Positions 10,625 to 17,557 of a DNA stretch of 44,862 bases are shown here, one piece after another. Within the stretch, counting starts at the first letter, position 1; each line of letters starts with the position of its first letter. The notes below the pieces were generated by a model. That model was not told the DNA's origin. It saw nothing but the letters and a program-made list of their open reading frames with translations, and searched no databases. The stretch is from assembly GCA_026706755.1 (NCBI GenBank), contig JAPOYG010000102.1:1-44862 (forward strand), in the 5' to 3' direction. This DNA comes from Acidobacteriota bacterium (GTDB lineage Bacteria; Acidobacteriota; Vicinamibacteria; Vicinamibacterales; UBA8438). Both the position numbers and the translations under genes were made by a program.

Positions 10625-11458
10625 ATGCGCTTCGGCCTGATCGCCGGCAACGGCCGCTTCCCCTTTCTGGCCCTCGAGGCCATGAAGCGCCTCGGGCACG
10701 CGGTGACCGTGGTCGCGATTCGAGAGGAGACGTCCCCCGCGCTGGCCGCCGCGGCCGCCTCGGACCCTCCGGCGGCGCTCCACTGGGTTTCCCTCGGCGA
10801 GCTGGGGAGGTGCATCGCCACGCTCAGGGAGGCGGGCGTGACGCGGGCCCTGATGGCCGGGCAGGTCCAGCACCGGCGCCTCTTCACCGGCGTGATGCCC
10901 GACCGCGTCCTGCTGGGCGTCCTGCGGCGCCTGGCGACCCGCAACACCGACGCGCTCATTTCCGGGGTCGCCGACGTGCTCCGCGAGCACGGCATCGAGC
11001 TGGTCGACTCGACCGCCTTCCTGGAGCCGCTCCTGGCGCGGCCCGGATGCCTGACCGCGCGCGAGCCGACCGACGACGAGCGCGCCGATCTCGACTTCGG
11101 CTATCGCATGGCCGACGCGGTGGCCGCGCTGGACATCGGGCAGACCGTCGCGGTGAAGGAGCGGGCCGTGGTCGCGATCGAGGCAATGGAGGGTACCGAC
11201 GCCGTGATCGCCCGCGCGGGACGGCTCGCGGGCCCCGGCGTCTCCGTGATCAAGGTGGCGAAGCCGAACCAGGACATGCGCTTCGACGTCCCCGTCGTCG
11301 GCCTGCCGACCGTGGACGCACTCCGGAGCGCGGGGGCGCGGGTGCTGTCGATCGACGCCGGCCGAACCCTGGTGCTGGACGGGGAGCGCCTGCTCGAGGC
11401 GGCCGAGGAAGCCGGAATCACCGTCGTGGGTCGCGCCTTGCAGGACGCTGCCCGGTGA
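10625..11458 (+). CDS. lpxI: UDP-2,3-diacylglucosamine pyrophosphatase LpxI (DUF1009)
   Basis: 277 aa; N-terminal [25 protein letters not shown], and [32 protein letters not shown]...[14 protein letters not shown], typical of LpxI; follows lpxA. Confidence 0.92.
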
Positions 11459-12408
11459 CGAAGCCGTTCTGCGCCGCGGTGGTGGGGGTCGGCCACCTGG
11501 GACGGCATCACGCTCGGCTCCTGGCTCGTCTGCCGGGTGTCGAGCTGGCCGCCGTCGTCGACGTCGACGCGCGCCGCGCCGCCACCGTCGCGTCCGAGCT
11601 CGGTACCCGGGCCGCTTCCGGGATCGAGGAGCTGCCCGCCGACCTCGACGGGGTCGCGGTCGCCGTACCCACGGCGGCGCACGCCGAGGTCGCGCTGCCG
11701 CTGCTGCGGGCCGGCACGCCGGTCCTGGTGGAGAAGCCGATCGCGGCGTCGGTGGCGGAGGCGGACGCGCTGGTCGCGGCCGCGGCGAAGTCGGGCGCGA
11801 CGCTGGCCGTGGGCCACACCGAGCGCCACAACCCGGCCGTGACGACGGCCCGGGGGCTGGTGGCCGCCCCCCGTTTCATCGAGGGGCATCGCCTGGCCGG
11901 ATTCGCCCGTCGCAGCCTCGACATCGACGTGGTGTTCGATCTGATGATCCACGATCTCGACATCGTGCTTGCCATGGTCGGGTCGGAGCCGGCGTCCATC
12001 GAGGCGGTCGGCGTCCCCGTGCTCACCGAGCGCGTCGACATCGCCAACGCCCGCCTCCGGTTCGGGAACGGGTGCCTGGTGAACCTGACGGCCAGCCGCA
12101 TCAGCCGGGACCGCGTGCGCAAGCTCCGCGTCTTCGAGGCGCACTCCTATGTATCGCTGGACTACGGCGCCCAGAAGGTCGAGGCGTGGCGCGTGACAGA
12201 GGGCGGCGGGGGAGAGCGGGCCATCGAGGGGGGGAGCGTTCCCGTGACGCGTGCGGAGCCGCTCGAGCGGGAGCTGTCCGATTTCGTAGCTGCCTGCCGC
12301 GCAGGCTCGCGCCCGCGCGTGACGGGGGAGGATGGGCGCCGGGCACTGGTCGTCGCCCAGCGCGTCGCGGAGGAGATCGCCCGGGGGACGGAGGTCGGCC
12401 TGTCGTGA
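11455..12408 (+). CDS. Gfo/Idh/MocA-family oxidoreductase, possible UDP-GlcNAc 3-dehydrogenase (GnnA-like)
   Basis: GTGA overlap with lpx[63 protein letters not shown]. GnnA assignment rests on lipid A gene context. Confidence 0.85.
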
Positions 12409-12484
12409 GCGCCCGACGCGAGCCCGCCGCGCGACGTCGCGGGCCGGGGGGCGGAGCCGGAGCGTGAGCTCGGCGGAGCGGGGA

Positions 12485-13411
12485 ATGGCAGCGGATCGAC
12501 AGGCCGGATCGACGACGGCAGAGCTCGAGGCAATCGGGGAGAGACTGCGCGCGGGCGACGGCCTCGCGTCCGGCGACGCGGCCGTGCTGGCCGCAACTCC
12601 CGACCTCGTCGCGCTGGGCGCGCTCGCGGATGAGCGGCGGCGGGCGGTGCGCGGGGACCGGGTGACGTTCGTCCGGGTGCTCGAGGTCGAAGCGGCCGCC
12701 GCCGGGGCGGGACCGGACGGCGTGCCGCCGCGCGCCGGTGAGGTGCGCATCGTCGGGCGTCCGGCGAACATCGCCGCAGCGGTGGCCGCGGCCCGGCGGC
12801 TGCGCGAGGCGGCCGGCCGCACTCCCGTCACCGGATTCGCGCTCGACGATCTCGTGGACGTATGCGGTGCCGACGCCTCCGCCGTGCGCGAGGCGCTGGC
12901 CGGGCTCCGGGAGGCAGGTCTGGAGCGCGTTGCCGAGGCCAGGGTGGACGGCGTCGCCGACCCGGCGTGGATCGAGCTCGCGGCGGCGGAGGGGCTGCCC
13001 GTCACGCGGTTGACGGTGGCGTCGGCCGACGCGGACGCTCTCGAGACGGCCGGGACGGTCGCGGCCTGGGGGGCGGCGGCGGCCAGCGTTCGCGTCTTCG
13101 CGCCGTTGCCGACGAATGCCGGTCCCCGACCGTCGACGGGCTACGATGATCTCCGCCGGGTTGCGCTCGCGCGGCTGGTGGTTGACAATATCGACTCCAT
13201 ACAGGTCGATTGGCGCTTGTATGGGCCCAAGCTGGCACAAGTGGCGCTCACTTTCGGGGCCGACGACGTGGACGCCGTCTCACCGATCGACACGCTCGAG
13301 CACGGATGGCGCCGTGCGCCTCTCGAGGAGATCGCACGCAACGTGAGCGCCGCGGCGCGGGTCCCGATCGAGCGCAACGGCCGGTTCGAGACCGGCACGG
13401 CACGACCATGA
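12485..13411 (+). CDS. MqnE/MqnC-like protein lacking the radical-SAM CxxxCxxC motif (alternative GTG start at 12464)
   Basis: N-term LVALGALADERRRAVRGDRVTFVR and C-term PSTGYDDLRRVALARLVVDNIDSIQVDWRLYGPKLAQVALTFGADDVDAVSPIDTLEHGWRRAPLEEIARNVSAAARVPIERNGRFE match the MqnE/MqnC/CofH family; no Cys cluster between VTFVR and GEVRIVG. ATGA overlap with mqnA. Confidence 0.8.
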   Translation: MAADRQAGSTTAELEAIGERLRAGDGLASGDAAVLAATPDLVALGALADERRRAVRGDRVTFVRVLEVEAAAAGAGPDGVPPRAGEVRIVGRPANIAAAVAAARRLREAAGRTPVTGFALDDLVDVCGADASAVREALAGLREAGLERVAEARVDGVADPAWIELAAAEGLPVTRLTVASADADALETAGTVAAWGAAAASVRVFAPLPTNAGPRPSTGYDDLRRVALARLVVDNIDSIQVDWRLYGPKLAQVALTFGADDVDAVSPIDTLEHGWRRAPLEEIARNVSAAARVPIERNGRFETGTARP

Positions 13412-14205
13412 GCGTGGTGCGCGTCGGCTGCGTCGAGTATCTCAACGCCCGCCCGCTCGTCCACGGGCTGGATGGGCGGCCTGATCTGTTCTCGCTGCGC
13501 TTCGACGTTCCGGCCCGCTGCGCCTCCTGGCTGCACGAACGCGAGGTCGATCTGGCCCTCATCCCCACCATCGAGTACCAGCGCCGGCCCGACTACCGGA
13601 TCGTGCCGGACCTCGCGGTGGCGTCCAACGGCCCGGTAGCTTCCGTCGCCATCTTCACCAAGCGGCCGGCAACGGCCATCCGTTCCATCGCCATCGATTC
13701 CAGCTCCCGCACGGCGGTCGCGCTGTTGCGGATTCTGTGCGCCCAGTGGTTCGACATCGAGCCGACGTTCGTGACGATGCGTCCCGACCTGCCGGCGATG
13801 CTCAAGCGTTGCGACGCCGCCCTGCTCATCGGCGACGTGGCGCTGTTCACGGAGCACGAGACCACGGACCTCGACAAGATCGACCTCGGCGAGGAGTGGA
13901 CGGCGATGACGAACCTGCCCTTCGTGTGGGCGTTCTGGGCGGGGCGCCCGGGAGCGGTCGAGCCGGTCCACGTCGCCGCGCTCCGCGCGGCGCGCGTCTC
14001 CGGGGAGGCCGCGTTCGACGAGATCGCCGCCGCGCACGGGCCGGAGGACGAGGACGAGGCGGTGCTCGCCCGCGCCTACCTCGAGGCCAACGTGCAGTTC
14101 GCGCTGACCCCGGAGTGTCTGGCGGGCCTCAAGCGGTTCTTCGGCGCGGCGCTCGATCTCAACATCGTGCAGCAGGCGACGAGCGTCCGCTTCTACGAGT
14201 CGTGA
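13408..14205 (+). CDS. mqnA: Chorismate dehydratase (menaquinone biosynthesis MqnA)
   Basis: MSVVRVGCVEYLNARPLVHGL...CASWLHEREVDLALIPTIEYQRRPDYRIVPDLAVASNGPVASVAIFTK...DLGEEWTAMTNLPFVWAFWAGRPG. Confidence 0.94.
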   Translation: MSVVRVGCVEYLNARPLVHGLDGRPDLFSLRFDVPARCASWLHEREVDLALIPTIEYQRRPDYRIVPDLAVASNGPVASVAIFTKRPATAIRSIAIDSSSRTAVALLRILCAQWFDIEPTFVTMRPDLPAMLKRCDAALLIGDVALFTEHETTDLDKIDLGEEWTAMTNLPFVWAFWAGRPGAVEPVHVAALRAARVSGEAAFDEIAAAHGPEDEDEAVLARAYLEANVQFALTPECLAGLKRFFGAALDLNIVQQATSVRFYES

Positions 14206-15416
14206 TGGGCTGCGGGCTCGACGAGATCGCCACCCGCCTGCGGGGCGGGGAGCGGCTGAGGGCGGGGGAGGCGCTCGACCTGTACCGCGCCGCTCCGACC
14301 CTCGAGCTCGGGCGCCTCGCGGATGCGGCGCGCGCGGCGAAGCACCCCGAGCGCATCGTCACCTACATCATCGACCGCAACGTCAACTACACGAACGTCT
14401 GCGTCGCCCGCTGCAACTTCTGCGCCTTCTACCGGCCGGTCGGCGCCGGAGACGGCTACGTGCTCGGTTTCGACGAGATCTTCGCCAAGATCGACGAGAC
14501 CCTCGAGGTCGGAGGGGTGCAGCTCCTCCTGCAGGGCGGACACAACCCCGACCTTCCACTGGGGTGGTACGAGGACCTCTTCCGGGCCGTCAAGGAACGG
14601 TACCCGACCTTCCGGCTGCACGCCCTGTCGCCGCCCGAGGTCATCCACCTGTCGCGGCTCTCGCAGCTTCCGGTGCCCGCGGTCGTCGAGCGGCTGGTCG
14701 CGGCCGGCCTCGACAGCATTCCCGGCGGCGGGGCCGAGATCCTCGTGGACCGTGTGCGCCGCCTCCTGAACTGCCACGGCAAGGCGACGGCGGAGGAGTG
14801 GCTCGACGTGATGCGCACCGCGCACCGGGCCGGCTTGCGCACCACGGCCACGATGATGTACGGCACCGTGGAGCGGCCCGAGGAGCGGATCGAGCACCTG
14901 CTCCGGCTGCGTGACCTGCAGGACGAGACCGGCGGGTTCACGGCGTTCATCGCCTGGAGCTACCAGCCTCCGAACACCGAGCTCGGCGGGATCGAGGCGA
15001 CGGGCGTCGAGTATCTGCGCACGCTGGCCCTGGCCCGGCTGGTGCTGGACAACTTCGACAACCTGCAGGCGTCGTGGGTGACGCAGGGCGGCAGGGTGGG
15101 GCAGCTCAGCCTCGCGTTCGGCGCCAACGACATGGGCAGCGTGATGATCGAGGAGAACGTCGTCCGCGCGGCCGGCGCCGCCTACTGCATGGACGAGGTC
15201 GAGATCGTCCGCAACATCGAGAACGCCGGCTTCGTGCCCAAGCGGCGCAACATGCACTACGAGCTGCTCGGCGACCCGATCTTTCGCGAGCGTGCCGTGC
15301 CCCGGATGCTCGAGCTGGCCGTCGCCCGGGCCGGCGAGGTCGGGGCGCCGCCGCCCGAGGTCGCGCGCTATCCGGCCCGCAGCCGTGCGGAGAAGGCCCG
15401 TCGCGCAGCGCGATGA
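14205..15416 (+). CDS. mqnC: Cyclic dehypoxanthinyl futalosine synthase MqnC (radical SAM)
   Basis: YIIDRNVNYTNVCVARCNFCAFYRP (CxxxCxxC), GGVQLLLQGGHNPDLPLGWYEDLFRAVKERYPTFRLHALSPPEV, GLDSIPGGGAEIL, TATMMYGTVE. TGATG overlap with mqnA. Confidence 0.95.
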   Translation: MGCGLDEIATRLRGGERLRAGEALDLYRAAPTLELGRLADAARAAKHPERIVTYIIDRNVNYTNVCVARCNFCAFYRPVGAGDGYVLGFDEIFAKIDETLEVGGVQLLLQGGHNPDLPLGWYEDLFRAVKERYPTFRLHALSPPEVIHLSRLSQLPVPAVVERLVAAGLDSIPGGGAEILVDRVRRLLNCHGKATAEEWLDVMRTAHRAGLRTTATMMYGTVERPEERIEHLLRLRDLQDETGGFTAFIAWSYQPPNTELGGIEATGVEYLRTLALARLVLDNFDNLQASWVTQGGRVGQLSLAFGANDMGSVMIEENVVRAAGAAYCMDEVEIVRNIENAGFVPKRRNMHYELLGDPIFRERAVPRMLELAVARAGEVGAPPPEVARYPARSRAEKARRAAR

Positions 15417-16660
15417 GGCCCTCGCGACCCACCCGCTACCACGCCGCCTGGGTGCTGCCCGTCGCGACCCCGCCGATCCGCGACGGGTGGGTCGAGGTCG
15501 CCGGCGGCGTCGTGACCGACGTGGGGGCGCCCGCCTCCCTCCCGCGGGACCGCCCCGCCCGGACCGTGCACCTGCCGGGGCACGCCGTGCTGCCGGGCCT
15601 CGTCAATGCGCACACCCATCTGGAGCTCTCCGGCCTGCGGGGGACCGTTCCCCGGACGCGCTCGATGCCGGAGTGGGCTCGCGCGGTCATGGCGGGCCGG
15701 GCGCGGCCGTCGGCCGGCCGCGCGGCGGCCGTCGGCTCCGCGGTGGACGAGATGCGGGGAGCGGGCACCGCCCTGGTCGGCGACGTTGCGAACACGCACG
15801 AATCGATGGCCGCTCTCCGCGACGGCCCGGTGGCCGCGGTCGTGTTCCGGGAGGCCCTGGGCTTCGACGCGGGCGACGCCGAGGCGGCCGCGATCGGGGC
15901 CGCGCTGTCCGCGGAGCGGGCGGCCGGGGCGGGTAACCACGTGCGGGTCGCCATCGCCGCGCACGCGCCGTACTCCGTGTCGCCCGCCCTGTTCCGGGCC
16001 CTGGCCGGCGCGGCCGGCGGCGGCCCGCGGTCGGTCCACGTCGCCGAGTCGGCGGAGGAGCTCGAGCTGCTGCGGGCGGGGACCGGCGTCTGGCGCGCGA
16101 TCCTCGAGGAGCGGGGCCGCTGGGGCTCGGACTGGGTGCCTCCCCGCTCGGGGCCCGTCGCGTACCTCGATGCGCTCGGGTGGATCGGCCCGCGCACCCT
16201 GATCGTGCACGGCGTACACCTCACGCCGACCGAGATCGATCGGATCGCGGCCGCGGGGGCGACGCTCGTGGCGTGCCCGCGCAGCAACGCCTGGACCGGC
16301 GCCGGCACGCCGCCGATCGCTCGCTTCTACGCGGCGGCGGGGCGGGTGGCAGTGGGCACCGACAGTCTGGCCAGCGCCCCGGATCTCAACGTGTTCGCCG
16401 AACTCTCCCTGATGCGGCGGCTGGCGCCGTCGGTGCCGGCCTCGGCGCTCCTCGCCAGCGCGACCGCGGTGGGAGCGTCCGCGCTCGGGGCCGGCGACCG
16501 CTTCGGCGTCATCGCGCCGTCGAGGCCGGCCTCGCTGATCGCGGTCGAGTTGCGGGGCGCGACCGACGATGTGGAAGAATACCTGCTCAGTGGCATCGAG
16601 CCCGATTGCGTCACCTGGCTCGCGGACCTGGAATCCGGACCGGGCGGCCCCGAGAGGTAG
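15413..16660 (+). CDS. Amidohydrolase, probable aminodeoxyfutalosine deaminase (MqnX-like)
   Basis: Metal-dependent amidohydrolase motifs VNAHTHLELSGLRG, HAPYSVSP, HVAESAEE, IVHGVHLTPTEIDRIA, VGTDSLASAPDLN; ATGA overlap with mqnC. Substrate inferred from operon. Confidence 0.82.
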   Translation: MRPSRPTRYHAAWVLPVATPPIRDGWVEVAGGVVTDVGAPASLPRDRPARTVHLPGHAVLPGLVNAHTHLELSGLRGTVPRTRSMPEWARAVMAGRARPSAGRAAAVGSAVDEMRGAGTALVGDVANTHESMAALRDGPVAAVVFREALGFDAGDAEAAAIGAALSAERAAGAGNHVRVAIAAHAPYSVSPALFRALAGAAGGGPRSVHVAESAEELELLRAGTGVWRAILEERGRWGSDWVPPRSGPVAYLDALGWIGPRTLIVHGVHLTPTEIDRIAAAGATLVACPRSNAWTGAGTPPIARFYAAAGRVAVGTDSLASAPDLNVFAELSLMRRLAPSVPASALLASATAVGASALGAGDRFGVIAPSRPASLIAVELRGATDDVEEYLLSGIEPDCVTWLADLESGPGGPER

Positions 16661-16666
16661 GCAGGA

Positions 16667-17557
16667 TTGAATCGCACCGGGGGGGGCCTGGCCGGGCCGC
16701 GAGAGGTCGCCGGCCGTCTCCGCACCTACGCCTCGCTGGTGCGGCTGAGCCACACCGTCTTCGCGCTCCCGTTCGCACTGACGGGCGCGATGCTCGCTGC
16801 CGTCGAGACCCCGCTGACGGCGGCGCGGCTCGCCTGGATCGTGGCCGCGATGGCGACCGCGCGCACCGCCGCGATGGGCTTCAACCGCCTGGTCGACGCG
16901 CGATCCGACGCCCTGAACCCTCGCACCCGCAGCCGCGAGCTGCCCCGCGGCCTGGTCTCGCGGCGGGAAGCGGCGGTGCTGGTCGGAGTGTCGTCCGCGG
17001 CATTCGTGGCCGTGACGTCGCGCATCAGCGCGCTCTGCCTGGCGCTGTCCCCGGTCGCCCTCGGCATCGTCTTCTGGTACTCGCTGGCCAAGCGCTACAC
17101 GACGTGGACGCAGGTCTATCTCGGCATTGCGCTCGCGGTTGCGCCGGTCGGAGGATGGATTGCGGCCGGCGGCGGAGCCGGTTGGGAGCCGTGGCTGCTC
17201 GCGATCGGCACCGGAACCTGGGTGGCGGGGTTCGACATCCTCTATGCGTGCCAGGACGTGGAGTTCGACCGGAGCCAGGGGCTGCGATCGATTCCGGCCC
17301 GCTTCGGCGTCGCGCGGGCGCTCACCATCGCGCGCGCGTTCCACGTGCTCACCGTGGCGGCCCTGGCCTCGCTGGCGTGGGTGGTGCCGCTCGGGCCCGT
17401 CTACCTGGCCGGGGTCGCGGGTGTCGCCGCGCTGCTCGCGTACGAGCAGTCGCTCGTGCGGCCGGGCAACCTGTCGCGGGTTGGACAGGCGTTCGATCTG
17501 AACGGCTACGTGGGCGTGCTCTACTGCGTCGCGACGGCGGTGGCGATCCATGCCTGA
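16667..17557 (+). CDS. UbiA-family prenyltransferase (MqnP-like)
   Basis: TTG start; SLVRLSHTVFALPFALTGAML, GFNRLVDARSDALNPRTRSRELP, YACQDVEFDRSQGLRSIPARFG, multiple TM helices. Confidence 0.92.
   Translation: MNRTGGGLAGPREVAGRLRTYASLVRLSHTVFALPFALTGAMLAAVETPLTAARLAWIVAAMATARTAAMGFNRLVDARSDALNPRTRSRELPRGLVSRREAAVLVGVSSAAFVAVTSRISALCLALSPVALGIVFWYSLAKRYTTWTQVYLGIALAVAPVGGWIAAGGGAGWEPWLLAIGTGTWVAGFDILYACQDVEFDRSQGLRSIPARFGVARALTIARAFHVLTVAALASLAWVVPLGPVYLAGVAGVAALLAYEQSLVRPGNLSRVGQAFDLNGYVGVLYCVATAVAIHA

Follow-up and report, generated by a model that had tools for sequence, protein, structure and literature searches.

Pseudoenzymes are well known among kinases and among some metabolic enzymes. 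Two described cases, PDX1.2 (PMC6829848) and a TSB-like protein (PMC12727527), are non-catalytic paralogues that stand beside active ones and for which an effect on a partner has been shown. Our literature search returned no paper title on a pseudoenzyme of the radical-SAM superfamily, and searches on menaquinone in Vicinamibacterales, on cluster-less radical SAM proteins and on futalosine in Acidobacteria returned nothing on the protein described here, which we call pseudo-MqnE. Its closest described relatives are two enzymes of the futalosine (menaquinone) pathway, the aminofutalosine synthase MqnE (PDB 6xi9 and 6xig; TIGR03700) and MqnC (TIGR03699), the cyclic dehypoxanthinyl futalosine synthase.

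The window is the whole stretch of DNA that was analysed, 44,862 nucleotides of contig JAPOYG010000102.1 from an Acidobacteriota genome (GCA_026706755.1) of the order Vicinamibacterales, hereafter the order. The genes of its futalosine operon and their neighbours are as follows.

11455..12408, + strand: Gfo/Idh-type oxidoreductase, the conserved upstream neighbour (conserved synteny)
12485..13411, + strand: pseudo-MqnE, a cluster-less MqnE-like barrel protein of 308 aa (homology, AlphaFold2 and Foldseek; start from homologue alignment)
13408..14205, + strand: mqnA (Pfam PF02621, VitK2_biosynth); its start and the stop of pseudo-mqnE share ATGA
14205..15416, + strand: mqnC, canonical radical SAM (NVCVARCNFC) with an order-specific C-terminal tail (TIGR03699, 478.7 bits)
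15404..16660, + strand: amidohydrolase, likely aminofutalosine deaminase (MqnX-like) (PF01979; NF006269 122.8 bits, below the cut-off)
16667..17557, + strand: UbiA-like prenyltransferase (sequence inspection, conserved syntenic position)

Pseudo-MqnE shares with MqnE the barrel, the N- and C-terminal sequence blocks and the operon position that mqnE holds in sister families, but it is without the cluster loop, helix alpha-1 and GGGAE motif of that enzyme. Its barrel is also homologous to that of MqnC, whose gene lies in the same operon; whereas MqnC has a cluster and NDMG/NDFG, pseudo-MqnE has no cluster and an MqnE-like DDxD.

Sequence and predicted fold of pseudo-MqnE

The best start is the ATG at 12485, where close homologues align; a GTG at 12464 is also in frame. 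The first-pass annotation had described an open reading frame in the mqnE position that overlaps mqnA by ATGA and has lost the CxxxCxxC loop and GGGAE, and the overlap and both motif losses were verified in the sequence. CxxxCxxC is absent from the window protein and from every homologue. The loss is larger than the cluster loop that had been proposed, since it runs from the loop through helix alpha-1 and is accompanied by a shortened beta-4/alpha-4 region, and the protein has 308 aa compared with about 366 aa for MqnE. Its single cysteine, C127, is non-conserved (cysteine at that column in 16 of 46 homologues), and a hidden Fe-S site on other cysteines is ruled out by the lack of any conserved cysteine in the family.

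The kinship of pseudo-MqnE to MqnE and MqnC is beyond chance. The protein scores 28.5 bits against Pfam CofH_C (PF19288), above the gathering cut-off of 27 bits, and matches PDB 6xi9 with E=5e-7 as a single sequence and 5e-17 as a family profile. Profile-profile comparison with the order's own MqnE and MqnC gave a probability of 99.6% over 286-294 columns. It scores as neither catalytic enzyme: the match to NCBIfam TIGR03700 (MqnE; E=2.5e-18, 66.2 bits) is far below the cut-off of 434.55, and that to TIGR03699 (MqnC) reaches 57.4 bits against a cut-off of 428.1, with no CxxxCxxC.

The AlphaFold2 model, built from the 46-member family alignment (pLDDT 92.5, pTM 0.90), has eight strands with their helices and forms a full barrel except for the missing helix alpha-1. 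The four best PDB matches in Foldseek are chains of the MqnE structures 6xig and 6xi9 (TM 0.75-0.77; best 6xig, 0.77), followed by radical-SAM barrels including BioB, PylB, HydE, HydG and ThiH. The prediction thus agrees with the earlier proposal of an MqnE-type barrel without the cluster site, and not with an unrelated fold. Four parts of the protein are referred to below.

12659..12691, + strand: beta-1, residues 59-69, VTFVRVLEVEA (AlphaFold2 secondary structure, family alignments)
12692..12739, + strand: place where the [4Fe-4S] loop and alpha-1 have been lost, 16 Ala/Gly/Pro-rich residues 70-85 joining beta-1 and beta-2 (model; homologues without CxxxCxxC)
12740..12748, + strand: invariant E86-x-R88 in beta-2 (46/46 sequences)
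13085..13408, + strand: residues 201-308, the most conserved part, a CofH_C-like barrel half, FAPLP...TGY.D...VDNIDSIQVDW...GPKLAQVALTFGADDVDAV...RR...R (invariant columns; dN/dS 0.10-0.16)

In MqnE and MqnC, beta-1 leads directly into the CxxxCxxC loop; in the pseudo-MqnE model the 16-residue loop runs straight from beta-1 to beta-2 (residues 86-90). The 46 sequences have 20 invariant columns, which include E86, R88, D222, R230, W243, Q252, D261, D263, R276, R277 and R297, and Q240 and D242 are near-invariant (44/46). By strand parity, E86/R88, D261/D263 and Q240/D242 should face the barrel interior. We propose E86-x-R88 as the counterpart of E120-x-H122 in canonical MqnE; this correspondence of beta-2 is drawn from predicted secondary structure, because MAFFT misplaced beta-2 when the three families were aligned together.

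With the catalytic residues gone, the fold and gene kept by selection and an active paralogue, canonical MqnE, in the same genome, the name 'MqnE pseudoenzyme' given by the first-pass annotation is a fair one.

Conservation across the order and origin

Pseudo-MqnE is found order-wide and is fixed in the mqnA-mqnC operon at the mqnE slot. The arrangement LpxI - Gfo/Idh - pseudo-mqnE - mqnA - mqnC occurs in 19/19 neighbourhoods mapped, and in 28 of 45 loci the pseudo-mqnE stop was seen to overlap the start of mqnA by 4 bp. An intact mqnE heads the arrangement mqnE - mqnA - mqnC in sister family f16 and in several further families, so that pseudo-mqnE sits in the slot held there by the canonical gene.

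The sample from the order comprised 106 genomes, each at least 90% complete and most of them fragmented assemblies. Pseudo-mqnE was found in 94, with one further fragment at a contig end (G384). Five genomes lack the futalosine genes altogether and have none of MqnE, MqnC and pseudo-MqnE (G037, G047, G057, G353 (family f11) and G053). For the six in which MqnE or MqnC was found and pseudo-mqnE was not, the contig stops at mqnA/mqnC in two (G265, G340), and MqnC was not found either in the other four (G325, G378, G359, G345). These six lack assembled sequence at the site, and we found no genome with sequence assembled upstream of mqnA that is without pseudo-mqnE. Among 297 genomes of the phylum, matches above 230 bits are limited to this order, and across 192 genomes sampled from the class, families other than those of the order gave only canonical-type scores. 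The search beyond the phylum was one short-pattern scan. A contig filed under a Woeseiaceae MAG (NZSH01000018.1) has the same Acidobacteriota-type gene order and is probably a binning error.

The gene is under purifying selection. Values of dN/dS for pseudo-mqnE are 0.19-0.35, including 0.19, 0.26 and 0.24 for the window gene compared with three congeners, and fall to 0.10-0.16 across residues 201-308. Those for mqnA and mqnC are about 0.10-0.15, leaving aside one comparison whose 101 codons are too few to be usable. Mean column identity is 45% in pseudo-MqnE versus 76-79% in MqnC/MqnE. The earlier view that this is not a decaying pseudogene is borne out by dN/dS well below 1 and by intact homologues in many relatives; a pseudogene or frameshift is ruled out by selection and conservation together.

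The first-pass annotation had left two options, a non-catalytic partner or scaffold for MqnC/MqnA with a true mqnE elsewhere in the genome, or part of a non-radical variant of the MqnE step. A search of the genome for a canonical mqnE with CxxxCxxC found one on another contig (C84), directly beside mqnD, which is truncated by the contig end and scores 445 bits against TIGR03700, above the cut-off. Relatives across the order have this trio too, with pseudo-MqnE and MqnC beside a canonical MqnE in one genome, which favours the first option. Because the same genome has a canonical mqnE, a non-radical replacement is not needed, and the second option is disfavoured. Elsewhere in this genome, there is an 848-aa open frame (L008/L031, contig C433), one of whose two radical-SAM domains matches CofH/MqnE-type models, which suggests an FbiC-like F420 enzyme.

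Both synteny and shared motifs suggest that pseudo-mqnE descends from the operon mqnE. The f16 operon MqnE has YFVRN, ETTGFDDL and PRLAQVGLSFGADDIDG where pseudo-MqnE has TFVRV, PSTGYDDL and PKLAQVALTFGADDVDA, and FGADDIDGT in MqnE of sister families is matched by FGADDVDAV. The order's canonical MqnE has FGVDDLDG, and counterparts of the other motifs shared by f16 MqnE and pseudo-MqnE are missing from it. Full-length and trimmed trees put pseudo-MqnE on a long branch at the MqnE/MqnC divide and do not place it on the operon mqnE, because the branch is very long. In AU tests, a grouping with MqnE, whether that of f16 (p 0.13) or that of the order (p 0.08), is not rejected, and one with class MqnC is the least favoured (p 0.02-0.06). 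We infer that pseudo-mqnE would be the original operon mqnE, freed from catalysis once a second mqnE, the one now beside mqnD in the window's genome, had taken over.

Candidate roles of pseudo-MqnE

Because pseudo-MqnE is kept under selection order-wide beside a working MqnE, it most likely has a non-radical job in the futalosine pathway. The likeliest form of that job, with about an even chance of being the right one, is that of a non-catalytic, radical-SAM-derived barrel serving as a fixed accessory subunit of the pathway; we judge it so because the substrate-side half of the barrel is retained and the protein is made in step with MqnA and MqnC. Pseudo-MqnE would bind MqnC and perhaps MqnA, and the retained substrate half (beta-2 and beta-6 to beta-8) would make the partner more stable or activate it allosterically, or else would bind an aminofutalosine-type intermediate and pass it on. 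Its mode of action might resemble that of PDX1.2 or the TSB-like pseudoenzymes.

The choice of MqnC or MqnA as partner is our inference. One possible contact is the conserved, order-specific C-terminal tail of MqnC (GDPxFR...VPR...PAEL..Y.ARS..K; 15260-15413 in the window), which is about 50 aa long in the order, 28-29 in f16 and mostly 3-10 (maximum 21) elsewhere, and which may be a docking element for pseudo-MqnE. The shorter tail of f16, in which there is no pseudo-MqnE, counts against the docking idea, and the coincidence of tail and pseudo-MqnE, as a single phylogenetic event, is only suggestive.

More tentatively, and as the chief competing reading, pseudo-MqnE could be a new non-radical enzyme that has kept the (amino)futalosine-binding half and acquired a new polar site, for example for N-glycosidic cleavage (the MqnB step) or another non-redox step. 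The 11 residues from E86 to R297 that are invariant in 46/46 sequences and the near-invariant Q240 and D242 are compatible with this reading: E86, R88, D261, D263 and D242 in the predicted barrel interior could equally mean a catalytic site, and at the position of D242 the canonical MqnE and MqnC consensus has another residue. Moreover, no futalosine hydrolase TIGR03664 (MqnB) was recognised in four genomes, that of the window and G028, G033 and G058, although these have the other genes of the pathway. However, the hydrolase lies beside mqnD in G006, G007 and G056, all of which also have pseudo-mqnE, so that the latter is no complement to the loss of MqnB; with both coexisting in several genomes, replacement of MqnB is a weak candidate. 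Other PF01048 nucleosidases also occur in most genomes (G058 is without any PF01048 protein), and we recognised no arrangement of catalytic residues typical of a known family.

Pseudo-MqnE might instead bind an intermediate as a regulator, buffer or sensor that makes no stable contact with the pathway enzymes; this reading would likewise draw on the kept substrate-side half and the operon position. We consider such a sensor rather unlikely, as tight translational coupling to mqnA and strict fixation in the operon suggest stoichiometric production with MqnA and MqnC. The faster evolution of pseudo-MqnE relative to MqnC and MqnE would fit a slowly decaying relic held by its operon position, or an assembly artefact, but a frame open in nearly all genomes searched, the low dN/dS, columns invariant order-wide and a high-confidence fold make this very improbable. 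We give next to no credence to non-radical chemistry in place of the MqnE step, which its position in the operon's mqnE slot might suggest, given canonical MqnE in this genome and across the order. Replacement of MqnD is ruled out, mqnD being present next to canonical mqnE.

A second cluster-less protein and comparison with known systems

In family f23, which belongs to the same phylum, there is a protein of about 305-320 aa that is MqnC-like but cluster-less (alignment A5; L126:6363-7310, L127, L172, L190 and others). The tree places it inside f23 MqnC (SH-aLRT 100 and 99), and its gene occupies the locus at which a sister species has canonical MqnC, adjoining a glycosyltransferase gene and not mqnA. 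It is under strong purifying selection (dN/dS 0.07-0.10). Its model is less certain (pLDDT 77.8), and the best match is again MqnE (TM 0.87-0.88). Of 15 genomes tested, 11 have the cluster-less protein, and none of these has an MqnC above the cut-off; all 11 carry another MqnC-like radical-SAM protein that scores 300-317 bits. In the other four, canonical MqnC is present and the 300-317-bit protein is not. This divergent protein, which has CxxxCxxC (L174 to L178 and L183), has presumably taken over the MqnC step in the f23 genomes with the cluster-less protein.

The MqnC-derived protein of f23 and the MqnE-like protein of the order therefore represent two separate origins in the phylum, each beside another active copy. 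We think it fairly probable that the barrel has taken on a new role, either that of an obligate allosteric subunit or that of a new non-radical enzyme, as an undescribed extra component of the order's futalosine pathway, and that within one phylum two enzymes of one pathway have given rise to radical-SAM pseudoenzymes on at least two occasions. The case is order-wide in a pathway that is otherwise well described, and with two independent losses it becomes testable what benefit a cluster-less radical-SAM barrel brings. For annotation it carries a warning: an MqnE-like gene in an mqn operon need not be MqnE.

Like pseudo-MqnE, PDX1.2 and the TSB-like protein are non-catalytic paralogues that a biosynthetic pathway has kept alongside its active ones; they differ in being plant proteins of unrelated families whose effect on a partner has been shown, whereas for pseudo-MqnE we infer one. 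The f23 protein shares with pseudo-MqnE its enzyme family and phylum, an independent loss of the CxxxCxxC loop and strong purifying selection. Unlike pseudo-MqnE, it arose in place from MqnC, has a glycosyltransferase as its neighbour, and occurs together with a different MqnC-like radical-SAM protein.
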